Positions 9,911-29,663 of a DNA stretch of 50,703 nucleotides are shown here, piece after piece. Made by a program: the position numbers and the translations under genes. Numbering within the stretch: the first letter of the stretch is position 1; each line of letters starts with the position of its first letter. The stretch covers positions 1-50,703 of the forward strand of contig JABWAT010000019.1 in the NCBI GenBank assembly GCA_013360915.1. Direction: 5' to 3'. A model generated the notes under the pieces. The model saw only the letters and a program-made list of their open reading frames with translations, was not told the DNA's origin and made no database searches. Origin of the DNA: Bacteroidota bacterium. GTDB lineage: Bacteria; Bacteroidota; JABWAT01.

Positions 9911-12900
9911 GTGAGTCTACTTCATTTCCTTCTTTCCGCATTTCTTCTGTCGGCAACCCCGGCAAATGACCAGCCCCGAACGGGCACAGAAACCCGTCAC
10001 CTCAGGGTGCTCACAGCGGTATATCCTCCTTATGTGATTCAGGATTCGACGGGTTTCTCTGGTTTCGACGTGGATCTGCTGAAACTGGTCTGCCAGCTCA
10101 ACAACTGGACGTATGAGATCCGGACGGTCCCCTTCCCAACACTGCTTCCATTGCTGGCGGCTGACTCTGCTGATCTGGCGATCGGTGCCATCTATTATAC
10201 AAGAGAACGTGAAAAAGAGGGAACTCCGTTCTCGGCTTATTATCATGAAACCGGGTTGGTAGCCATTTCCAGGCCCGGTGTCGAACTTTCCACTTACCGC
10301 GATTTGCCAGACTTCAGGGTGGCGGTAAAAACGGGTGCAACCGGTGAAGGATTCATCCGAGCCATCATCCGGGACCGCGGCCTGAACATTCCGCTGCTTT
10401 CCCATTCGTCAACGGACACCTGTCTGAAATGGGTTTCTGAAGGGAAAGCCGATCTGACGCTCAATGATGTGCAGAATTCCCTGTACCTGATCTCAAACAA
10501 CTATACCGGAAAACTGCTGGTAAACACCGGCATTGCCTCTTCGGGAATTTTGCTTCGCTACCCGTTGGGATTTCCCATGAGCCCCTCATTTGCGGCTGAA
10601 CATGGTGAGGCTCTGAATTCAGCCATTGATCAGCTGGATGAGTCCGGACTGCTGGAATCCATCAGAAAACGCTGGCTGCCAGCCATTCAGCCGGCAGGCG
10701 TTTCTTATTGGTGGCTGCTGGTGTGGCTACCGGTGGTGATCCTGATCATCTGGGCTGTGTTCGTTTATGTTCAGCGCCGGACCACGGCCCGTCTGAGAAG
10801 GGAATCGGCTAAACTTTCCGCAGCCGTTGATCAGACCACCATTCAGATCCTGATTCTTCGCCGGACCGGTGAAATTGAATTGTCCAATCCGGCTTTCCGG
10901 TCAGCGGCCGGCCCCGGTGACTGGACGGGCAAGGTCTGCCCGTACCTGACCGGACCCTTCATGGATCCCGACACACGTGAGCGTCTGCTGAACCGGGCGC
11001 TTAACGGAGAGGTGATCCGCCAGACCGTATCAGCTTCCTATCGTGAAAAGGCTTCTGTTCACATCGAGGTACAACTGTCACCCGTCCGGTCCAATGGTGA
11101 CGACATCACACATGTGGTGGTTTTTGCCCGCGACATCACCGGCATTGTACAGACCGAAGATGCACTCAGACAGGCAGAAGAACGTTACCGTCATTTTCTG
11201 AAACAATCTGCCGATGGAATCCTGATTGTGAATCCGTCATCCGGACTGATTGAGGAAGCGAACCGGACTGCCGCTCAGATTCTCGGGTACACCGACACAG
11301 AATTGATGATGCTGAAACTGGATCAGCTGATTGGCTCCGACCGGATTGCCCAGCTGAACCGTCAGGTGAATGAAACGGGCAAGGCCTGGGGGGAATATGA
11401 CCTGGTTCACCACATTGGTTACCCTGTCCATTGCGATGTTCGGGTTACCTCGGTGGAACTGCAAACCCAGACCGTCTGGGTGGTGACGCTGAGGGATATT
11501 TCTGAACGCAAATCGGTGGAAGAAGCGCTGAGAAGCAGTGAAAGCCTGTACCGCACCCTGTTCGGTCAGTCACCCTTGGGCATTTTCTCAACCGATTCCC
11601 GTGGAATGATCACCAACGTGAATCCGCGGCTGGTCGAATTGCTCCGGTTGGCTGATCCGTCGGTGCTATTGGGAAAATGGATTTCGGATATTCCCTATAT
11701 CACCCGAAATGGATTGGATGAGCGTTATAACGAGGTCTTAACCCAGTTAAAGCCTGTGGTGGCTGCGACTACCTCCCGACTCACTGAATCCACTATTCTG
11801 AATTTACGGATCCGGATTTCGCCCCTGATGAATCCGGATGGATCCTGTGCAGGGTCCCTGTCGGTCATTGAAGACGAAACCGACAACCACCGCACCATCC
11901 GCGCACTCAGTCTCAGTGAAGAACGATTCCGCACACTGGTGGAATCCATTCCGGCACCCGTCATGATTTCCAGAATGACCGATGGAATGATCATTTACGG
12001 GAATGATTACACCGGAGGGGCCATTGATACACCGGTGTCGGCCTTTGTCGGGCAGCCAATCACCGCCTTTTATGCCAATCCATCCGAACGGAGTGCCCTG
12101 ATTGCCATGCTGCAGGAAAAAGGGAAGCTGGATGGATATGAATTCCGGGCCCGCATGCCCGATGGCCGGGAAGTGGACATATTGCTGTCTGTTTCCATGA
12201 TCCGGTTTGATGATTCTTCGTGTTTCCTGTCGATACTGACCGACATCACCGGCCGGAAACAAGCCGAGTTAAAATTGAAGACAAGCGAGGAACAATACCG
12301 GTCCATCGTTGAAAACATGTCTGAAGGTATTTTTCAGGTATCCGAAAAAGGACAATTCCTATCGGTCAATGGTGCCATGTGTTCGATACTTGGCTATCAG
12401 CGTCAGGATTTGCTTGCATTAAATTATTCCACCGGTTTTTTCTATCATTCACGTGACCTGATCACCGTCATGAGGCATGCGACCACTCCTGGCGAACGGC
12501 GTTTTGTCGAGGTGGAGTTGCGTCATCAGAATGGTTCTCCCGTCGCCGTCCAGCTGAAACCACGGGCCATCAGGGATGAGAGCGGCCGGTTGCTGTATTA
12601 TGAAGTGCTGGTGATTGATGTGTCGGATCTGAAGGCTTCCGAGAATGAAAAACGGAAACTGGAAGAGCAACTCATCCAGAGTCAGCGTCTGGAATCACTG
12701 GGAACCCTTGCCGGCGGAATTGCCCATGATTTTAACAATGTGCTTTCCATGATTCTGATGGCATCGGAATCGATGAAGATTCTGGCTGGTGATGATGAAA
12801 AACTGAACCGGTATGCCGATATCGTGGCTTCCTCGGCTGAACGGGGAGCCGCCATTGCCCGTCAGTTGCTGCTTTTTGCCCGCGATGAAACCATCGATCT

Positions 12901-13819
12901 GCAACCGGTGAATCTGTTGTATATCATCCGGGAAGTCACTGAACTGCTCTCACACAGTTTCCCGAAATCCATCCGTCTCACTGCCGATTTCGGCACCCGT
13001 TCAGGTATTATTCTCGGCAATGCCGGACAGATTCAGCAGGTTCTCATGAATCTGTGCATCAACAGCCGCGATGCGATTCAGCAGGTCAATGAAGAAAATC
13101 CCCAGGGCGTGGTTTCGATTCATCTGAATGAACGGAACGGGGAGGAACTGGCTGCCTTTCTTCCCGGTGTGGTCACCGGAACCTGGCTGGAGCTGGAAAT
13201 CCGCGACAATGGATCCGGAATGGATTCTGTGACCCTTCAGCGGATTTTTGAGCCCTTCTTCACCACCAAAAGCCGGGGAAAGGGGACGGGGCTCGGACTA
13301 TCGATTGTACATGGTATTATCCGTGCGCATCAGGGTCATATCCGGGTAGAATCGGTTCCGGGATCGGGCACCTCTTTCTTTGTTTACCTTCCAAATCTGA
13401 AAACCCGCGAACTGATGGACAATCCCTCAGCAGGTTTTGATCACCCGGATCTGAAAGGGACGGTTCTGGTGGTGGATGATGAGGAACTGATCAGGGAAAC
13501 CCTGCACGAAATCCTTCGTTCAACCGGATTTCAGGTCCTGCTTGCACCGAACGGCATGGAGGCGCTGGAACTCTATCGGGAAAAAGGCAGTCAGATCGAT
13601 CTGGTCATCACCGATATGGGTATGCCACAGATGAACGGTGGCGAATTATTCAAGCGTCTGAAAGAATTGAAACCCGACATACGGGTGATTTTCTGTACCG
13701 GCTATATGGAGCAGGCTTCCAAATCGGATCTTCTGAAAAGAGGGGCCTGTGACGTGATTTATAAGCCGTTTAAAGTACAGGAACTGCTGGCTTCCATTTC
13801 AACCGTTCTGAAGTCCTAA
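9911..13819 (+). CDS. Hybrid sensor histidine kinase with SBP sensor, five PAS domains and receiver
   Basis: This 1302-residue membrane hybrid kinase has a signal sequence, then an extracytoplasmic amino-acid-binding-protein-like domain (SBP_bac_3, about 30-250), and one transmembrane helix (about 266-289). Four clear PAS units start near 423, 541, 668 and 790, with a weaker one at about 300-415. The HisKA H-box (AGGIAHDFNN, near 930) is followed by an HATPase with N box NLCINSRDAI, G1 DNGSGM, F box FEPFFTTKSRGKG and G2 GTGLGLSIVHGI. The C-terminal receiver (about 1183-1302) has VVDDEE, the phospho-acceptor Asp in VITDMGMPQMNG, and the Lys in YKPF. The SBP sensor suggests binding of a small solute, perhaps an amino acid. 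It starts at a GTG 23 bases after the nuclease gene and ends overlapping the opposite tsaC by four bases. No separate output regulator lies adjacent. Confidence 0.92.
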   Translation: MSLLHFLLSAFLLSATPANDQPRTGTETRHLRVLTAVYPPYVIQDSTGFSGFDVDLLKLVCQLNNWTYEIRTVPFPTLLPLLAADSADLAIGAIYYTREREKEGTPFSAYYHETGLVAISRPGVELSTYRDLPDFRVAVKTGATGEGFIRAIIRDRGLNIPLLSHSSTDTCLKWVSEGKADLTLNDVQNSLYLISNNYTGKLLVNTGIASSGILLRYPLGFPMSPSFAAEHGEALNSAIDQLDESGLLESIRKRWLPAIQPAGVSYWWLLVWLPVVILIIWAVFVYVQRRTTARLRRESAKLSAAVDQTTIQILILRRTGEIELSNPAFRSAAGPGDWTGKVCPYLTGPFMDPDTRERLLNRALNGEVIRQTVSASYREKASVHIEVQLSPVRSNGDDITHVVVFARDITGIVQTEDALRQAEERYRHFLKQSADGILIVNPSSGLIEEANRTAAQILGYTDTELMMLKLDQLIGSDRIAQLNRQVNETGKAWGEYDLVHHIGYPVHCDVRVTSVELQTQTVWVVTLRDISERKSVEEALRSSESLYRTLFGQSPLGIFSTDSRGMITNVNPRLVELLRLADPSVLLGKWISDIPYITRNGLDERYNEVLTQLKPVVAATTSRLTESTILNLRIRISPLMNPDGSCAGSLSVIEDETDNHRTIRALSLSEERFRTLVESIPAPVMISRMTDGMIIYGNDYTGGAIDTPVSAFVGQPITAFYANPSERSALIAMLQEKGKLDGYEFRARMPDGREVDILLSVSMIRFDDSSCFLSILTDITGRKQAELKLKTSEEQYRSIVENMSEGIFQVSEKGQFLSVNGAMCSILGYQRQDLLALNYSTGFFYHSRDLITVMRHATTPGERRFVEVELRHQNGSPVAVQLKPRAIRDESGRLLYYEVLVIDVSDLKASENEKRKLEEQLIQSQRLESLGTLAGGIAHDFNNVLSMILMASESMKILAGDDEKLNRYADIVASSAERGAAIARQLLLFARDETIDLQPVNLLYIIREVTELLSHSFPKSIRLTADFGTRSGIILGNAGQIQQVLMNLCINSRDAIQQVNEENPQGVVSIHLNERNGEELAAFLPGVVTGTWLELEIRDNGSGMDSVTLQRIFEPFFTTKSRGKGTGLGLSIVHGIIRAHQGHIRVESVPGSGTSFFVYLPNLKTRELMDNPSAGFDHPDLKGTVLVVDDEELIRETLHEILRSTGFQVLLAPNGMEALELYREKGSQIDLVITDMGMPQMNGGELFKRLKELKPDIRVIFCTGYMEQASKSDLLKRGACDVIYKPFKVQELLASISTVLKS

Positions 13820-19517: not shown

Positions 19518-21268
19518 GATCAGTTGTGATTTTTCTGCTGATTTTGTTGCCGGTCGGAGCAATTTCCCAGACGAACCGGTTTTCTGCTGCAGCTTTGTCG
19601 TCCCGTGCAGCTGCTCTGCTGGGTGATTCCCTGGCATGGCCGGTTCTGGCTTCCGTGGCTGTTTATGATAACCGGAGCAACACCTTTTCCATTCCGGTGA
19701 CAGCCAGTCCCGCTTTACAGACTTTCCGGCTTTATCACCAGAAAGTCCGGGTTGTTACTGAACAGCTTCCGGTACAGGTAAAAGCAGGGGCCGGTTTATT
19801 TGGGCCATCCGAACTGAAGGCCTTGGAAAATGCGTTAAACCGTTATCAGTTGAACCTTTCGGCTGGCAATGTGGATAGCTGCCTGAAACTATCGGCCACT
19901 GTTTCATCTCTGGCTCTCCGGCTTGAATCGGCCATAGAACGGAACCGGTTGTCGGCAGTTGAAGCCCGGCTGGAGGAAAAAACGGGAATTGTGGGTCAGC
20001 GAAAAGGGTTGCTGGGGGCATGGAAACCGGTTGAAACCGGCACTTTGTATGAAGAAAACGACGGGGTCAGAACCTATGCAGACAGCCGGGCGGCGTTGGG
20101 ATTCCGCGATGGATCCAGGGTGATCATGGGTGAACACAGCATGGCCACCATATCCCGCTCCCGGCTCGATAACCTGACCCGTGCTGTGAAAACCGATGTG
20201 ACACTGGTGAATGGTAGTTTGCTGGCAAGGCTTTCCGAGCAAAGTAAACAACGGGCCGATTTCCGGTTGTCGGTTGGTAACGCCAGATCTGAGTTGCAGA
20301 CCAACCGCTTCTGGGCCAATCGGGATGGTGACAAGCGGATCCAGGTTTCCAATTATGACGGTGAAGCCAGACTGACCGCTTCGAATGTGACGGTGACCCT
20401 CCGCAGGAACCAGGGAACGGTGGTGGTGGAAGGAAAACCGCCGGCTTTACCGGTGGATCTGCTCCCATCCCCCAGACTGGATTGGAATACGCAGGATTCG
20501 GTCATTTACACCAACCAGTTTACCTTTAACTGGTCACCGGTCCGGGGGGCAACCCGATACCAATTGGAAATGGCCCTTGATCAGGATTTTACACGGCTGG
20601 TTTTCCGGCGTGAAATGGCGGGCACCCGGTTTTCCGGTACGTTTGAACTTGAACAACCGGTATACATCCGGTTACAGGCTTTTGATAATGACGGATTGCG
20701 TGGAACCGACAGCCCGACGTACCGGCTGGTTAAAAACACCGATGACATTCCGCCGGCTCTGTTCCTGTTTGGTGTGACCGGTGACGCCCTGATCATCCCG
20801 GGAACGGCTTACCGGGTGACCGGACAGACAGAACCATTCAGCCGGTTGACGGTTAATGGCAATCCGTACCCGGTGGCAGGCGATGGTTCTTTCGAACTGT
20901 CGGGAGACACCGGTAAGGAACAGTTGAAATTTGTACTGGAAGCAACGGACCGTGCAGGGAACAGCCGCCGGCAAAACCTGATGGTGATTCCCATCGATCC
21001 CGTCGTACTGAGGACCATCCGCTGGAACGTTCCGGTTAATGGCACCACCATTGATGGACAGGGAACGGCACTTTCTGCCAACGGAATGGCCTATCCCGGA
21101 ATGGAAATCCGGTACCGGGCCGGAAATCTGACCGGTTCGGTGGGAACTGCTTCCAACGGTGAATGGGCCGTTTCCCTGCCAGCAGGAGAAGGTCCCGCCC
21201 TGACATTTGATTTTATTCACACGGGGTCAGGTGACACCGTGTTAACCTTGACATTCACTATCAGGTAA
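19514..21268 (+). CDS. Exported FecR-domain protein with Ig-like domains
   Basis: From the ATG at 19514 this is a 584-residue protein with a clear signal peptide (about 1-20, ending near AISQ). A mature helical region (about 25-160) is followed by a FecR-type beta domain at about 170-305, with RVIMGEHSMATISR and the VTLVNGSLLARL segment. A Fn3/Ig-like domain with WSPVRGATRYQLEMA comes next (about 320-410), and two bacterial-Ig-like modules lie at about 420-584 (TVNGNPYPVAGDGSF). Stand-alone FecR modules of this kind, as opposed to FecR anti-sigma proteins, occur in exported proteins together with LysM or Ig repeats. I see no transmembrane anti-sigma architecture. The ATG overlaps the kinase stop by four bases, and a PKD-repeat protein follows after six bases. 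No T9SS tail is present. Role unknown, probably periplasmic or surface structural. Confidence 0.75.
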   Translation: MRSVVIFLLILLPVGAISQTNRFSAAALSSRAAALLGDSLAWPVLASVAVYDNRSNTFSIPVTASPALQTFRLYHQKVRVVTEQLPVQVKAGAGLFGPSELKALENALNRYQLNLSAGNVDSCLKLSATVSSLALRLESAIERNRLSAVEARLEEKTGIVGQRKGLLGAWKPVETGTLYEENDGVRTYADSRAALGFRDGSRVIMGEHSMATISRSRLDNLTRAVKTDVTLVNGSLLARLSEQSKQRADFRLSVGNARSELQTNRFWANRDGDKRIQVSNYDGEARLTASNVTVTLRRNQGTVVVEGKPPALPVDLLPSPRLDWNTQDSVIYTNQFTFNWSPVRGATRYQLEMALDQDFTRLVFRREMAGTRFSGTFELEQPVYIRLQAFDNDGLRGTDSPTYRLVKNTDDIPPALFLFGVTGDALIIPGTAYRVTGQTEPFSRLTVNGNPYPVAGDGSFELSGDTGKEQLKFVLEATDRAGNSRRQNLMVIPIDPVVLRTIRWNVPVNGTTIDGQGTALSANGMAYPGMEIRYRAGNLTGSVGTASNGEWAVSLPAGEGPALTFDFIHTGSGDTVLTLTFTIR

Positions 21269-21274
21269 CTGGTT

Positions 21275-24200
21275 ATGGCAACACGCTGTCTGTTCCTGTT
21301 TTTTATACTCATCCTGCCCGGATTGCCGGCTATTGCGCAGCAATCGACCTATTTTATTGTCAGCGGACCCTCGGCACCAGTGACCGCCGGTGAACCCTGG
21401 GAGGTGCAGGATTTCTGGCTGGTTCCCCCGGCCGGGCAGGGAGTTCCTGTTTCCATCGATCTGTTCGATGCCGGATTGGGTAGTCCCATGGATCTGGTAA
21501 CCGGCCCGGTCAATACCATCATTTCAGCAGAACTGATCCCTTTCGCTCAGGTTTATGCGATCCGGGATGGCAAGTTGGTTTCCCTTGGTACATCTCCGTC
21601 CGCCTCAGGAAAACCCATCGCCAATGATGAATCGACCGTGAACCGGTGGATTACCTGGCCGGAATCGGCCACCCCGCGCGAAGGAGGCTGGATATTCAGA
21701 ATCAGGGCGACCGGCGGGAATGATGTAAACGCCTTTCAGATCAGGTTGTCACAGGGAACCGGATGGACACTCCGTGCCATTAATCTCGGATTAAACGCCT
21801 TTGGTGTTGGTTCCGGGCAGGAAGTCCAGATTCCGGCTAACCAGCAATTGCATCCGTCCCCTGAACCAATGGTGGTTTCGGGTGAGGAAGATTCTCCCGT
21901 GAACCTACGGGATGCATTCGGAAATTCATATTCGCCCTCTGCGAGTGACATTGCCTGGGAACCCACCGTGAACGGATTACCGAATGAATGGGGATTGGTG
22001 GTCAGAGGATCTTCTTTCAGTATCAACAATCTGGTGATCAGGGGCAGCAACCATCCGGTGGTGTTTGATTTACCGGTAACAGTGGTTACCGTTCCGGTTC
22101 AGCCCAGACTGTCCATCCGCCCCGACTATCTCGGGGACTGCTTCCGGTTCTCTCTTCAGTTAAACCAGCGTTCGGTCATGGCCGGAGGGACCGGAGTCTC
22201 CTGGTTGGCCGATGGGAAAAAATTACAGGGAAATCCGGTTGAACTGGTCACCCGGGGCGCTGGTGATTTTCCCATCACGGCTTATGCCGAAACACAAGGG
22301 TTTCTCTTTCCGCGGTATTGGGTGGTTCAGTCGGTTCTGAACGTGAATGCACCACCCACCGCCATGATCAATCAACCCGACAGACGGCTTGCTACCGGCG
22401 AGGTGTTCTCCTTTCTTTCGGCAGGATCGACCGATCCCGATGGAGAGCCGTTAGTGTATCAATGGCTGGTGGATGGTAAACCTGCCGGGTACCAGCAGGG
22501 ATTTTCCTTCAGTTCATCGGTCCCGGGCGGATTCACCGTTTCCCTGATCGTGACCGATGTGTCGAATAAGCTGGGATGCAATGCAGACACCGCCTCGGTC
22601 ACTGTTCGTGTCAATGCACCCCCTTTTGGAGTGATCGAGCCCGTCCTTGTTTTTTCTCCCGATGAACCCGTGACCTTCCGGTCGGTCCGTCAGCAGGACA
22701 GTGATGGTGATTCGCCGCTGTACCTGTGGACCGGTGAAGGGGTGAATGATGAAGGCAACAGTGCTTCTGTCAGAATTCTCCATGAGGAACCCGGCACCTA
22801 TTCGATTCGGCTGCGTGTGGATGACCAGCAGGGAACGCCGAATTCGGTGTATCAGACCAATGCCACCTACCGTGTAAACGCGCCACCGGTACCAAGGTTT
22901 ACGATACCGGTTCAGTCGGCCCCCGGGGTGTCACTGACGTTGAATGCAAATGCAACTACTGATGCCGACACCAGATCGCTGACGTACACATGGAAAATAT
23001 CGGATGGCCGGTCTTTCCAGGGTCCGGTTCAGCCTCTGACGTTCGAACGACCCGGTTCCTACACAGTCACCTTGTCGGTCGATGACCGTGAGGGTGTGAA
23101 AAATTCGGTGCAATCCATCAGCCGCGACATTCAGATCAATGCTCCGCCGGTCCCGGTCATCACAGCTAATTCACTTTCAGCAGACGGACTTCAGACTTTT
23201 TCAGCGCAGAAAAGCCGTGATCCCGACCATTCAATTGTCTCCTATCGTTGGGAGTTCGGGGATGGAAACCGGGGTAGCGGGTCCGAGGTTACCCATCTTT
23301 ACGCATCAACCGGCCGTTATACCATCCGCCTAACGGTGGATGACGGGCAGAATCAGCCGAACAGTATCCAATCAACCACGCATCAGCTGACCATCACCAG
23401 ATTCCCGATCGCCCGGTTCGACCAGCCGCCGGCCACAGAACCCGGGGTACCCGTGTCCCTTGATGGGTCCTTCAGTTCAGATCCGGATGGGAAAATCACA
23501 CGCTATGCCTGGACCGCTAACGGAAAACCCATCGGAACCGGAGCAGCAGTTTCTTTCAGGCCAGACCAACCGGGGCAGTATGCCATTGCCCTGCAGGTGA
23601 CCGATGATTCCGGTTTTGAAGAGTCAACCGCCATTCTGTCACGCACGTTGGTGGTGAACCATCCTCCCGTCATCAGAACCTCGGTCACTCCCGAGGCACC
23701 GGCACCCGGAGAACCGACCACGTTTTCATCGGCAGGTTCCTTTGATCCCGATGGAAAAATCGGATCGGTCAGCTGGACCTTCAGCGATGGACTCCGTCTG
23801 ACAGGTCCGGTCATTAACCGGTCTTTTAAGTCGTCGGGTCCGCAGATGGCCATTGTCACCGTTTCCGATGGAACCACCTTCAAAAATGGAACCCGGTCAG
23901 ATACCATCCGCTTTGTGGTCAACCATTCACCCATCATTGTTACTCAACCGTTTATCCGCAGCAACATCCGCTCGATCCGGTTGGATGCCACCGATTCGTA
24001 TGACCCCGATGGCCATCCTCTGAAACTGGAGTGGATTTTACCCGATGGTTCCCGCCGGTCAGAAGCCAGCCTGATCTGGCAGGCCCCTTCAGGCGGTACC
24101 CACTTTATCAGTCTGCAGGCGGATGACGGGCAGGGAAGACCCAACAGCCGGACTTCCCAACGGATTGAAGTGAAAGTAAACCGTCCGCCGGTTGCGGTGG

Positions 24201-25972
24201 TCGATTCTCTCATCCGGGCTTGTACAGGTCAGACCATTCTGTTCAGCGGATCGGCCTGTTATGATCCCGATGGGGATGGATTTACCACGCGGTGGGATTT
24301 TGGTGACAGCACCACGAGTACCGAAACCAATCCGGTGAAGGTGTTTTACCGGCCGGGGACCTATCAGGTGACCATTACGCTGAGTGATGGCTTTACCGAT
24401 GTTCCTGTTCTGGCCACCATCCCGGTAGTTATTAAAGGATCCCCTGTTGCCCGCATCAATTTTGCCGATACCACCATTTGCGTCAATACCATCCTGAATC
24501 TTGAGGGAACCCATTCCACCGATCCCAATGGTCCGATCGGGGCGTACTCCTGGGATTTCGGAACCGGAGATCGTGATTTTGGTCCTTCTGTGAATTACAT
24601 CTTTAAGGAAAAGGGTGTGTACGTGGTTTCTCTGACGGTTGTCGGGAGTCCGGCCGGATCCTGCAGCAATATCAGTCAGGCTGTGGCCCGAGTAACGGTC
24701 ATTGAAGGACCTGTGGCCGATTTTAAAACCACCGACTGGATCGCCGATGGAGAGACCCTCACTTTCAGATCCGATTCAAAGGCACCAGAACCGGGTATCA
24801 GGGAATGGACCTGGCAGATCTCGGGACCGGGTGAGCCGGTTACCCTGACAGGGGCCACGGTTTCTCACCGGTTTACATCACCCGGCACGTACACCATCAC
24901 TCACCGCATTGTGGCTGAAGGAAAATCAGGTTGTAACACAGCCTCCCTTGCCCGGATTATCCGGGTAAATGCACCTCCGGTCATCAGATGGATGGTAGCC
25001 GATTCAACAGAAGCCGGAAGCCAGCTGAAACTGGATGCCTCTGCCAGCACAGATCCCGATGGTCTGATCCGTGACTTTCAATGGAAAATTAATGGAAAAG
25101 TGGTTGGAACTGATCCGGTCTTTTCCGTTCCGGTATCCTGGACCGATTCCATCCGGGTCAGCCTGACCATCCGTGACGAATCTCCGACCGCCAACCGGCA
25201 GGTATCGGTAACCAAACGGATTCTGATTAATCAGGCGCCTGATCCGCAGTTTACTCTTCCGGGCACGGTCTTCGAAGGTCAGGTGGTTCGGTTGACGCCT
25301 GCCGCCACCCGAGATGCCGATGGTGATGTGTTGCTGACCACCTGGCTGGTCAACGGTTCCGCTCTTAAGGAACCGGTTCTGAAGGTAACAGCCCAGCCGC
25401 AGACCGTCACACTCAGACAATCCGATCAGAGGGGATTTAAAAATTCGGTTGTTGAATTTTCACGACAAGTGACCGGCGAAAAGGCCCCGGTGGTTTCTCC
25501 GGCGGTCCCGGGAGTGCTTGTGACAGGTCATAAAGTTACTGTTCAGTCACTCGGACTTCCGGAATTAGTGAAAGTGGTGGCTCCTGAGCCGGTGAATGGT
25601 ACCATCCGTTGGGATCAGAGTGGAAATCAATCTCTCCGGCTGGCCTGGGTACCTGCAGGAGAAACACTGAAGACCTGGACTCAGCCGGTCACCGTTCTCG
25701 ATCCGCTTCGGTTTCTCAGCCAACCCGCACCGGTCGATCTGGTCTGGAATCCGGCCAATCCCTCTGTGGTGCAGACTGCACCGGCACTGAACCGGAATGA
25801 CCTCACAGCGGTGACAGTTAACTGGACGGTAAATGGTCAGCCATTGGGTGCAGGACTGACGAAAACACTTCCTCTGAAAAAAGGTATCAACCGGGTGACG
25901 GTTATTGCTGGCGAAGCAACGGTTCCGGGCAGCCAGCCGGTGACAGTTGCATGGGAGATTCGCTGTAACTGA
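21275..25972 (+). CDS. Large exported PKD-repeat protein
   Basis: This 1565-residue protein starts with a signal peptide (about 1-22, ending at AIAQ). A region of about 330 residues that I do not recognise follows. By eye count there are then about twelve tandem PKD-type beta-sandwich repeats between about 357 and 1400. Each opens with a variant of NAPPV, carries a SxDPDG turn and a WxxxDG motif, and closes near YTVTLxVDD. The C-terminal 165 residues resemble Ig/He_PIG-like modules and end without a T9SS sorting domain or membrane anchor. PKD arrays serve as extracellular spacers or adhesion modules. It is the last gene of the kinase-FecR-PKD operon. Two cysteines recur in a few repeats (for example DSLIRACTGQ...GSACYDPDG), suggesting disulfides and an extracytoplasmic location. 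Confidence 0.85.
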   Translation: MATRCLFLFFILILPGLPAIAQQSTYFIVSGPSAPVTAGEPWEVQDFWLVPPAGQGVPVSIDLFDAGLGSPMDLVTGPVNTIISAELIPFAQVYAIRDGKLVSLGTSPSASGKPIANDESTVNRWITWPESATPREGGWIFRIRATGGNDVNAFQIRLSQGTGWTLRAINLGLNAFGVGSGQEVQIPANQQLHPSPEPMVVSGEEDSPVNLRDAFGNSYSPSASDIAWEPTVNGLPNEWGLVVRGSSFSINNLVIRGSNHPVVFDLPVTVVTVPVQPRLSIRPDYLGDCFRFSLQLNQRSVMAGGTGVSWLADGKKLQGNPVELVTRGAGDFPITAYAETQGFLFPRYWVVQSVLNVNAPPTAMINQPDRRLATGEVFSFLSAGSTDPDGEPLVYQWLVDGKPAGYQQGFSFSSSVPGGFTVSLIVTDVSNKLGCNADTASVTVRVNAPPFGVIEPVLVFSPDEPVTFRSVRQQDSDGDSPLYLWTGEGVNDEGNSASVRILHEEPGTYSIRLRVDDQQGTPNSVYQTNATYRVNAPPVPRFTIPVQSAPGVSLTLNANATTDADTRSLTYTWKISDGRSFQGPVQPLTFERPGSYTVTLSVDDREGVKNSVQSISRDIQINAPPVPVITANSLSADGLQTFSAQKSRDPDHSIVSYRWEFGDGNRGSGSEVTHLYASTGRYTIRLTVDDGQNQPNSIQSTTHQLTITRFPIARFDQPPATEPGVPVSLDGSFSSDPDGKITRYAWTANGKPIGTGAAVSFRPDQPGQYAIALQVTDDSGFEESTAILSRTLVVNHPPVIRTSVTPEAPAPGEPTTFSSAGSFDPDGKIGSVSWTFSDGLRLTGPVINRSFKSSGPQMAIVTVSDGTTFKNGTRSDTIRFVVNHSPIIVTQPFIRSNIRSIRLDATDSYDPDGHPLKLEWILPDGSRRSEASLIWQAPSGGTHFISLQADDGQGRPNSRTSQRIEVKVNRPPVAVVDSLIRACTGQTILFSGSACYDPDGDGFTTRWDFGDSTTSTETNPVKVFYRPGTYQVTITLSDGFTDVPVLATIPVVIKGSPVARINFADTTICVNTILNLEGTHSTDPNGPIGAYSWDFGTGDRDFGPSVNYIFKEKGVYVVSLTVVGSPAGSCSNISQAVARVTVIEGPVADFKTTDWIADGETLTFRSDSKAPEPGIREWTWQISGPGEPVTLTGATVSHRFTSPGTYTITHRIVAEGKSGCNTASLARIIRVNAPPVIRWMVADSTEAGSQLKLDASASTDPDGLIRDFQWKINGKVVGTDPVFSVPVSWTDSIRVSLTIRDESPTANRQVSVTKRILINQAPDPQFTLPGTVFEGQVVRLTPAATRDADGDVLLTTWLVNGSALKEPVLKVTAQPQTVTLRQSDQRGFKNSVVEFSRQVTGEKAPVVSPAVPGVLVTGHKVTVQSLGLPELVKVVAPEPVNGTIRWDQSGNQSLRLAWVPAGETLKTWTQPVTVLDPLRFLSQPAPVDLVWNPANPSVVQTAPALNRNDLTAVTVNWTVNGQPLGAGLTKTLPLKKGINRVTVIAGEATVPGSQPVTVAWEIRCN

Positions 25973-26516: not shown

Positions 26517-28679
26517 ATGAAACGTCTTTTTTTCTTCTTTTTACTGGTTGGTCTGTTTGTTCAGGCGCAGGGGCAGCATCCGTCGTTTTTGCCAGGTAAA
26601 CAATGGGGTAAGGGACCATTTAACGGAATCCAGGTTGTCGATTCACTTGCTTGGTATCTGGAAGGTAGTGTGTTAGTTTCCGCAGTTATTCAGCCGGATT
26701 TACACCTTGCCCAGCTTGCGGAAATGGAATTGAATATGGCACCAGGCAACCTGAGTGCGTTTCACGATTATCTGGTTGTATATGGCAACGAACTGGTGGT
26801 CCTTAAAAGAGAACTTAACGGGGGGCTTATTGAAGTACTCCGGGAAACACGGGAATTCGATAACGCATGTATGGCAGGAAAGGTCCTTTATCTTGGAACT
26901 GACTATGAATTTACCGCTTATCTGGAGCTAAATGAACAAACAGAAGTGCAATTGGGGCAACTGACCGTACCTATTGACTATGAATACCCCATTTCAAGTG
27001 ATCTTGGTTTATTTGTTGCTGACTGGAACGGGATTGTTCGTTGGTTTTCTACAGTAAATCCGGTCGAGCCAGAATTATTGGATACATTGAATTGCTCAAA
27101 TAATTATCGTTCCGCTGTGACCTTTATAGATTCCCGCCTGGTTTATCTGAGGGACACGAGTCTGATTGTTATAAGTCCAAATTCTGATAATGACCTGATC
27201 CGAACCGATACAGTTGGAATTCAATCATTGTTGGGGGATTTGTGGGAAATTGATTTTATACAATCGCACGGAGATCTGATTTTCGCTGGTTCGCAAAATA
27301 TTGTAGGAAGTGTCTGGAGTGTTGCCCGTGTTTCTGCAGGCCTTTCCATCTCAGCCTTTTCAAAAACCTTTTACTTTACCGATCCGGTCTTCTTTTCAAT
27401 AAACAATGGCTTCCTGGTTTATGATTCCGGATTCTTAAGTTATAAACTGGAGGGTCAGTCTGACCCAGTCCTGACCTCTGTGTTAATTCCATCAATTGGA
27501 TATCTGGGACAACCCTTCTTCAACCCAAATCAGCCGGAATTTATCAGTTTCTATGAACAGGGAGAAATTTTGTTGGTAAATAATCTCAGCACTGTACCAG
27601 AAGTGAAGTTCGAACTTCCCTACCATCTTACGGATGTTTTATATGATGGTTATTCTGCATGCAGTCTTGAAAATGGTCTATTATTTATTACTCAATATTC
27701 CGAATTCGGGTTCCTGGATTTTACATCCGAACCGATAAAATGGCAGCCAGTAAATTTCTGGCTTGAGGAAGCTCCATTCTGTGATCTGGAATTGAATGGA
27801 AAAATCTTATTGGCAAGAACGGAATCCTGGGGATGGGAAGCTGAAAACCGACTATATAAATTAAGATTAAATCAACTTGAGTCTATTGTCATTGAAGATA
27901 TCTATTTGGGAACAGGACAAAATAGCATTTCGGATGTGACTTGGTTAGGTGATCGAATCATCATTTCAGAATCAGATTCTGGAATAACGGTTACCGATAC
28001 CACCTTTCAACTCATCCAGAGAATCAGAAACATCGGAAGGGTTAATCAGGTAAAAACAATCAAAGGCGGTGTAGCTGCCTTACTTGGAAATGGGACTATT
28101 CAAGTCTTTTATCAGGAAGAATCGGGTTTCCTGAAACAAGCAGAAACGACCATTTCAGTTGGGTCGCCAAATGTGATTATGGAGATGGCTGATGATTTCC
28201 TCTTGGTCATTTCTGGTCGGACTCTTTTCGTAATTGATGTTAAAAATGCCTTTCACCCGGTTCTTGCTGGGCAAATTTCTTTGCTGTTTGAAAGCACCGG
28301 GATGGTATTTACCGGGGAAAAGCTGGTTATTTCCCATGGTCGCTACGGTTTCACCCTGTACGACTATACAGGCTATCAAGTCGGTGTGGAAAATCCAAAA
28401 GAAGGAAATCCTGCTGGATTTGCCATTGAATCGGTGTATCCGAATCCGTTTAATCCAATGGCGACGATTGCCTACCGGGTACCAGTGGCTGGCGAAGTGA
28501 CCATGACGGTGTATGATCTGACCGGCCGGGAGATCGCCAGGCTGGTTAATGGAAAAGTAGGAGCCGGGTATCATGAGGTCCCGTTTCATGCCCCCGGTCT
28601 GGCATCGGGAGTGTATCTGGTGCGGATTCAGCTTGCCACCGGGCAACAGGCAACTGCCCGGATGATGCTGGTGAAATAA
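26517..28679 (+). CDS. Secreted protein with type IX secretion C-terminal sorting domain
   Basis: This 720-residue protein has a signal peptide (MKRLFFFFLLVGLFVQAQGQ), a long body without recognised motifs, and a C-terminal Por/T9SS type A sorting domain from about residue 632 (YPNPFNPMATIAY, YDLTGREI, LASGVYLVRI). The body has repeated beta-strand-rich stretches with aspartates, compatible with a beta-propeller, but I cannot name a family. T9SS cargo is carried across the outer membrane and then released or attached at the surface. A GGAGGG site precedes the ATG. The body is clearly more AT-rich (about 40% GC in the lines I counted) than the tail (about 55-60%) and the neighbours, and has few CCGG words. 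This suggests that the body was acquired from elsewhere or evolves under different pressure. A strong terminator follows. Confidence 0.8.
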   Translation: MKRLFFFFLLVGLFVQAQGQHPSFLPGKQWGKGPFNGIQVVDSLAWYLEGSVLVSAVIQPDLHLAQLAEMELNMAPGNLSAFHDYLVVYGNELVVLKRELNGGLIEVLRETREFDNACMAGKVLYLGTDYEFTAYLELNEQTEVQLGQLTVPIDYEYPISSDLGLFVADWNGIVRWFSTVNPVEPELLDTLNCSNNYRSAVTFIDSRLVYLRDTSLIVISPNSDNDLIRTDTVGIQSLLGDLWEIDFIQSHGDLIFAGSQNIVGSVWSVARVSAGLSISAFSKTFYFTDPVFFSINNGFLVYDSGFLSYKLEGQSDPVLTSVLIPSIGYLGQPFFNPNQPEFISFYEQGEILLVNNLSTVPEVKFELPYHLTDVLYDGYSACSLENGLLFITQYSEFGFLDFTSEPIKWQPVNFWLEEAPFCDLELNGKILLARTESWGWEAENRLYKLRLNQLESIVIEDIYLGTGQNSISDVTWLGDRIIISESDSGITVTDTTFQLIQRIRNIGRVNQVKTIKGGVAALLGNGTIQVFYQEESGFLKQAETTISVGSPNVIMEMADDFLLVISGRTLFVIDVKNAFHPVLAGQISLLFESTGMVFTGEKLVISHGRYGFTLYDYTGYQVGVENPKEGNPAGFAIESVYPNPFNPMATIAYRVPVAGEVTMTVYDLTGREIARLVNGKVGAGYHEVPFHAPGLASGVYLVRIQLATGQQATARMMLVK

Positions 28680-28681
28680 AA

Positions 28682-28712
28682 AAAAGGGCTGTCCGGTGAA
28701 GACAGCCCTTTT
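28682..28712. terminator. Bidirectional rho-independent terminator
   Basis: A perfect 12-base-pair inverted repeat, AAAAGGGCTGTC (28682-28693) against GACAGCCCTTTT (28701-28712), has a seven-base loop. T-rich DNA follows on the plus strand and the complementary A-rich flank gives a T tract on the minus strand. It separates the convergent T9SS-cargo gene and mdh and should stop both transcripts. Confidence 0.9.
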
Positions 28713-28733
28713 CGTTTAAGTGAGTGACGGAAC

Positions 28734-29663
<930 letters not shown>

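Follow-up and report, generated by a model that had tools for sequence, protein, structure and literature searches.

The gene found at positions 26517 to 28679 (forward strand) of the window, a contig of 50,703 nucleotides (C19) from a 3.65 Mb Bacteroidota genome (G000), raises the question of how an AT-rich coding region comes to end in a secretion tail of ordinary composition. The original prediction was that the body of the gene had been replaced or imported while the host-specific tail was kept, possibly through a cassette mechanism for new surface proteins. The open reading frame runs from ATG to TAA and encodes 720 amino acids. Residues 640-716 are a T9SS type A sorting domain, recognized above the curated cut-offs of both Pfam (Por_Secre_tail domain, PF18962; 30.9 bits versus a cut-off of 27, E 3.5e-7) and NCBIfam (TIGR04183; 33.9 bits versus 23, E 2.3e-8), and the tail to which this domain belongs extends from 28413 to 28676, or to 28679 with the stop codon. 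At the other end, a hydrophobic segment of about 20 residues (26517 to 26576; helix predicted at residues 2-19), noticed by eye in the translation, is a probable Sec signal peptide. The body, of 632 amino acids (26517 to 28412), has no match above cut-off to any family of Pfam or NCBIfam, the protein has no sequence match in the PDB, and an AlphaFold2 model made from three sequences, which is poor (mean pLDDT 45), presents the body mostly as strands in repeated blocks. The genome encodes SprA (1354.8 bits, at G000:C4) and several proteins matching PorV_fam above cut-off, which makes a working T9SS likely. Judged from its sequence, the product would be a T9SS type A cargo protein in which a surface body rich in strands is placed between a signal peptide and a type A sorting tail.

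Downstream of the gene, a spacer (28680 to 28733) with a terminator-like inverted repeat, seen by eye, separates it from a convergent open reading frame (28734-29660, from the list of open reading frames) that is malate-dehydrogenase-like (mdh). The mdh-like gene is 89-91% identical in G001, G002 and G003, three further genomes of the same bacterial family, in which its surroundings are rearranged. Directly upstream of the cargo gene, a 1565-amino-acid protein of many PKD domains, with no T9SS sorting-tail match, is encoded at 21275-25972. Neither this gene nor the cargo gene lies beside mdh in G001-G003, and positional orthology through mdh was discarded as an approach. Also present in the window, at 9911-13819, is a gene for a hybrid sensor of 1302 amino acids with an extracellular solute-binding domain (SBP_bac_3), several PAS domains, a histidine kinase and a receiver.

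GC, GC3 and GC at 4-fold sites are 0.418, 0.383 and 0.424 in the body of the cargo gene, and 0.564, 0.580 and 0.714 in its tail, in agreement with the AT-rich body on a genome-typical tail that had been described. A recount gave 24 of 60 G+C in each of the two body lines originally counted (27061-27120 and 27181-27240), and 33, 37 and 33 of 60 in the three lines over 28501-28680, within the 33-37 reported for the sorting domain. The GC minimum of the entire 50.7 kb, calculated in 500-base windows, falls inside this gene (0.38 near 27501). A change point was located at codon 648 (nucleotide 28461) for GC, with none of 2000 permutations giving an equally strong one, and at codon 647 (nucleotide 28458) for GC3 (permutation P 0.0025), the 2-log-unit interval being 28410-28485. 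The break that had been expected near 28400 is significant, its best point lying further downstream, at about 28458, directly behind the codons for the motif PNPFNP (28440-28457). The step is synonymous: with the codon usage of the gene's own body, the same amino acids would give the tail a GC3 of 0.392 instead of 0.580, which rules out amino-acid composition as its cause. The idea that a conserved domain simply has higher GC3 was likewise ruled out, the 4-fold GC in bodies being lower at conserved residues (0.543 versus 0.575), and windowed identity not tracking GC3 (rho 0.06). The scarcity of CCGG, on the other hand, is a weak sign of foreign origin. The 5 copies counted in 26821-27720 were confirmed, 22 rather than 21 were found in 19981-20880, and the contrast was overstated, since a 900-nt window contains 12.6 copies on average, and 24 of the 499 windows have no more than 5.

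With the tail as a query, 91 tails were found in G000, of which 82 were analysed after dropping nine that were too short or located at a contig edge. Among these 82 genes, the one studied here ranks first for the difference in GC between tail and body (0.147) and third for that in GC3 (0.197), and has the fifth most AT-rich body. For the 80 genes with bodies long enough, mean GC3 was 0.550 in the tails, 0.514 in the bodies and 0.513 in the block of equal length preceding the tail, the mean of 102 other genes being 0.559; total GC did not differ significantly between tails and bodies (P 0.25), and only the third codon position differs. The slope on body GC3 was 0.35 for tail GC3 and 0.68 for the preceding block (bootstrap P 0.0018 for the difference), which indicates that the composition of a tail is partly uncoupled from that of its gene. 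Tail GC3 was also higher than body GC3 in G001 (P 0.058), G002 (P 2e-6) and G003 (P 4e-5), and, in each of the four genomes of the family, exceeded the value expected when amino acids are matched, the overall effect in G000 shrinking to 0.549 versus 0.528 under this comparison. In G000 to G003, T9SS bodies lie below the other sampled genes in GC3, clearly so in G000, G002 and G003. No significant step was detected in the sampled genes of G012, G014, G018 and G020, all from other families, and in partial samples of G005, G007 and G009, also from other families, the GC3 of tails and bodies, compared as means only, was nearly equal.

Besides the genome of the window, homologues of the body were found in two of 148 genomes, G001 and G003, which belong to a different genus of the same family. 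A scan of contigs with peptide patterns from the window protein gave no further body homologue, and a scan with the G001 protein matched only G001 itself. Each homologue is of full length, its body having 21-24% identity with that of the window gene, and both carry the same gradient, with a GC3 of 0.288 in the body and 0.482 in the tail in G003 (mean of sampled non-T9SS genes 0.415), and of 0.388 and 0.541, respectively, in G001 (mean 0.481). Since the gradient is the same in hosts that differ in GC3, the AT bias is a property of the lineage of the body, one that is kept in hosts of differing composition. Full-length relatives with the same gradient had been named beforehand as the observation that would speak against an exchange; those now found speak against the recent replacement or import of the body, which is not supported.

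Recombination of tails was analysed in pairs of genes with homologous bodies within the same genome, from G000 (82 genes) and from the partly sampled G001 (53), G002 (29) and G003 (46). Tail and body were compared for identity at 4-fold sites in the 357 pairs that were testable, out of 360, with Bonferroni correction. Eight pairs have tails far more alike than their bodies, and all of them lie in tandem clusters, conversion confined to the tail being found in six clusters of the four genomes. At P<0.01, the same was observed for 23 of the 93 pairs located within 8 kb and for 5 of the 264 others. The strongest pair, L092/L093 (tandem, G000 C1:841500-846660), combines saturated bodies (4-fold identity 68/180) with 97% identical tail DNA (48/49), and both of its members also have an AT-rich body and a typical tail. 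The G001 homologue itself (L205:8001-10205) follows a diverged second copy (L205:5761-7998), near G001 C21:189-194 kb; the bodies of the two are 24% identical (4-fold 15/53) and their tails 98% identical (47/52), with DNA identity running from just before the PNPFNP codons to the stop codon (tract -241 to +2). Such likeness of tails is not due to constraint on the DNA, since tails compared between genomes are near saturation (mean 4-fold identity 0.355). Outside the family, a pair of G018 shows the same contrast (body 34/86, tail 29/30). In 12 pairs the tracts, 77-99% identical, were mapped: in six of them the 5' edge lies no more than about 20 nt upstream of the NPFN codons, and in the other six it lies farther up, within the body. 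On the 3' side, the tracts end anywhere between 16 nt ahead of the stop codon and the far end of the 90 nt analysed behind it.

A mirror image of this situation was seen cleanly once, in L181, two adjacent T9SS genes of G001 (C21:305000-324900) whose bodies are near-identical and whose tails differ. Between these neighbours, 26-30 of 30 bases are identical per block up to and through the PNPFNP codons, and 13-23 of 30 in the tails past them, so that similarity switches at the motif. This is the one clean case that fits a body copied while the tail was kept, as first proposed, the direction being ambiguous there. The data support a recombination of tails with bodies within this family, with the boundary where it had been predicted, and to this extent the cassette mechanism is supported in part, although the direction that is better documented is the exchange of tails between neighbours. 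Two other candidates were set aside, L165, which was significant in the opposite direction and in which similarity stops short of the region before the tail, and L186_578, an apparent tail swap for which the full-length alignment was uninformative.

With regard to the gene in the window, the best match of its tail in its own genome is 51% identical in amino acids, no partner with a near-identical tail is present in the assembly, and no tandem T9SS gene adjoins it; a recent exchange is therefore not demonstrable for this gene. The comparison with other T9SS tails, which the original prediction had suggested, yielded no donor, and revealed that this tail is not the counterpart of those of the homologues, which rank 35th of 53 in G001 and 42nd of 46 in G003 among the sampled tails. 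Such poor ranks fit an exchange but could also reflect great age. Where bodies are as little as 21-24% identical, tails might seem unrelated even if inherited vertically. Exchange is not universal, given that 13 of 50 reciprocal-best body pairs keep each other's tail as the best sampled match; in others the partner's tail is far from the best, and in the pair L073/L167, for example, the bodies are 69% identical and the tails 31%, with a tail rank of 34 out of 53. Among the clusters sampled from G005, G007 and G009, whose genomes are nearly closed, and among four more genes of G018, no tail conversion was found in a comparison of 526 pairs, which included G005-G009 cross pairs and of which 48 had a tail identity of at least 0.5, and there was no strong case in sampled G012, G014 and G020. 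Thus, exchange is frequent in this family and patchy elsewhere, and among the genomes sampled the composition step and nearly all the conversions were seen in this family only.

We consider it rather probable that body and tail have had separate histories. The body would descend from a gene lineage that is old in this Bacteroidota family and biased towards AT. The tail would be one of a pool of about 90 in the genome, which T9SS genes, for the most part neighbours in tandem, would renew among themselves through homologous recombination (gene conversion), their tails being similar enough for this and their bodies not. Homologous recombination between tandem T9SS genes is the most likely process as far as sequence comparisons can tell, and the tract maps suggest a junction limited by homology, the tract often starting at the PNPFNP-coding DNA because paralogous bodies would cease there to share enough sequence, and ending near or beyond the stop codon. 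Through repeated exchange, tails would acquire the composition of the pool and bodies would retain their own. The exchange of tails between neighbours would probably explain an AT-rich gene with a tail of ordinary composition, and we infer that the gene in the window itself went through such an exchange, an old event that gave its tail the composition of the pool.

It might be instead that no exchange took place in this gene, and that a body lineage made AT-biased by weak codon selection or low expression carries a tail with genome-typical codons, the step having been inherited whole. This is a doubtful explanation, albeit one of some weight. The gradient common to both full-length homologues, the lower GC3 of T9SS bodies as a class (0.514 versus 0.559 in other genes) and the lack of a donor tail are all in line with it, but neither homologue has a tail that corresponds to the one in the window, the G001 homologue shares its tail with a neighbour, the step coincides with the exchange junction found elsewhere, and conserved body residues do not have higher 4-fold GC. 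That a resident tail recently received its body by horizontal transfer from an AT-rich donor is very improbable, even if the GC of the body is among the five lowest of the 82 genes and the gene does not adjoin mdh in G001-G003. Homologues of the same bias exist in two genomes of the family and in none of the 146 other relatives searched, the peptide-pattern scan of genome contigs found none, and the bias amounts to 9-18 GC3 points under the other genes of the host in all three genomes, whose GC3 differs.

A GC-biased gene conversion might raise the GC of tails as they recombine often, either adding to the averaging within the pool or replacing it. The evidence on this point is mixed. Tail GC3 is above body GC3 in all four genomes of the family (G001 alone, P 0.058), and in G000 the difference between them rises with closeness to other tails (rho 0.39, P 3e-4), but tail GC3 itself is weakly correlated with closeness (P 0.09) and the other families lack a significant rise in GC3 (means only for G005, G007 and G009). 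Such a bias could be an added source of the GC excess; as an account of the step we regard it as unlikely. It is very unlikely, finally, that the near-identical tails of neighbouring genes are artefacts of draft or metagenome assembly. Every positive pair is indeed from a draft assembly, and there were none in the nearly closed genomes sampled; however, the copies differ, identity in the mapped tracts being 77-99%, a result that a collapse would not produce, and the pattern was found again and again, in four genomes of the family as well as in G018 of another one.

The number of T9SS cargo genes ranges from tens to more than a hundred in many Bacteroidota genomes. Conversion confined to the tail, with a recurring junction, represents a testable mechanism for placing one secretion tail on many bodies, and implies that the past of T9SS proteins cannot be reliably traced from trees of their tails or from the composition of whole genes. 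More tentatively, the PNPFNP-coding DNA may be a shared crossover point at which these Bacteroidota join different bodies to resident tails and renew tails on resident bodies, through gene conversion between T9SS genes, which, if true, would be a general route to new surface proteins.

The window protein is by sequence a member of the T9SS type A cargo (TIGR04183/PF18962), a membership that is silent on tail exchange, so that the latter is an added finding. No description of gene conversion confined to T9SS tails was found in the literature searched, most subscription papers lying outside it; the accessible part of one article on T9SS (PMC7323717) deals with components of the machinery, not with cargo tails. 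In Porphyromonas gingivalis, modular recombination and allelic exchange have been reported among T9SS surface proteins, the gingipains and adhesins (PMC5266723). There it is the adhesin and catalytic domains that vary, the C-terminal domain being called conserved, and the available portion of that work describes no conversion confined to the tail. The KLIKK proteases of Tannerella forsythia, encoded in two gene clusters, have differing protease bodies and a nearly identical T9SS C-terminal domain, for which the authors, in the part of their article available, suggested the fusion of bodies to a common, relatively recently acquired tail, adding that its origin 'requires further research' (PMC4404884). 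As in the pairs described here, unlike bodies share a near-identical tail; the portion available of that article contains no analysis of synonymous sites or tracts, whereas here tracts were mapped, in tandem paralogues, with an edge often at one motif. A crossover at PNPFNP, if true, would account for common tails of the kind that the KLIKK proteases have.
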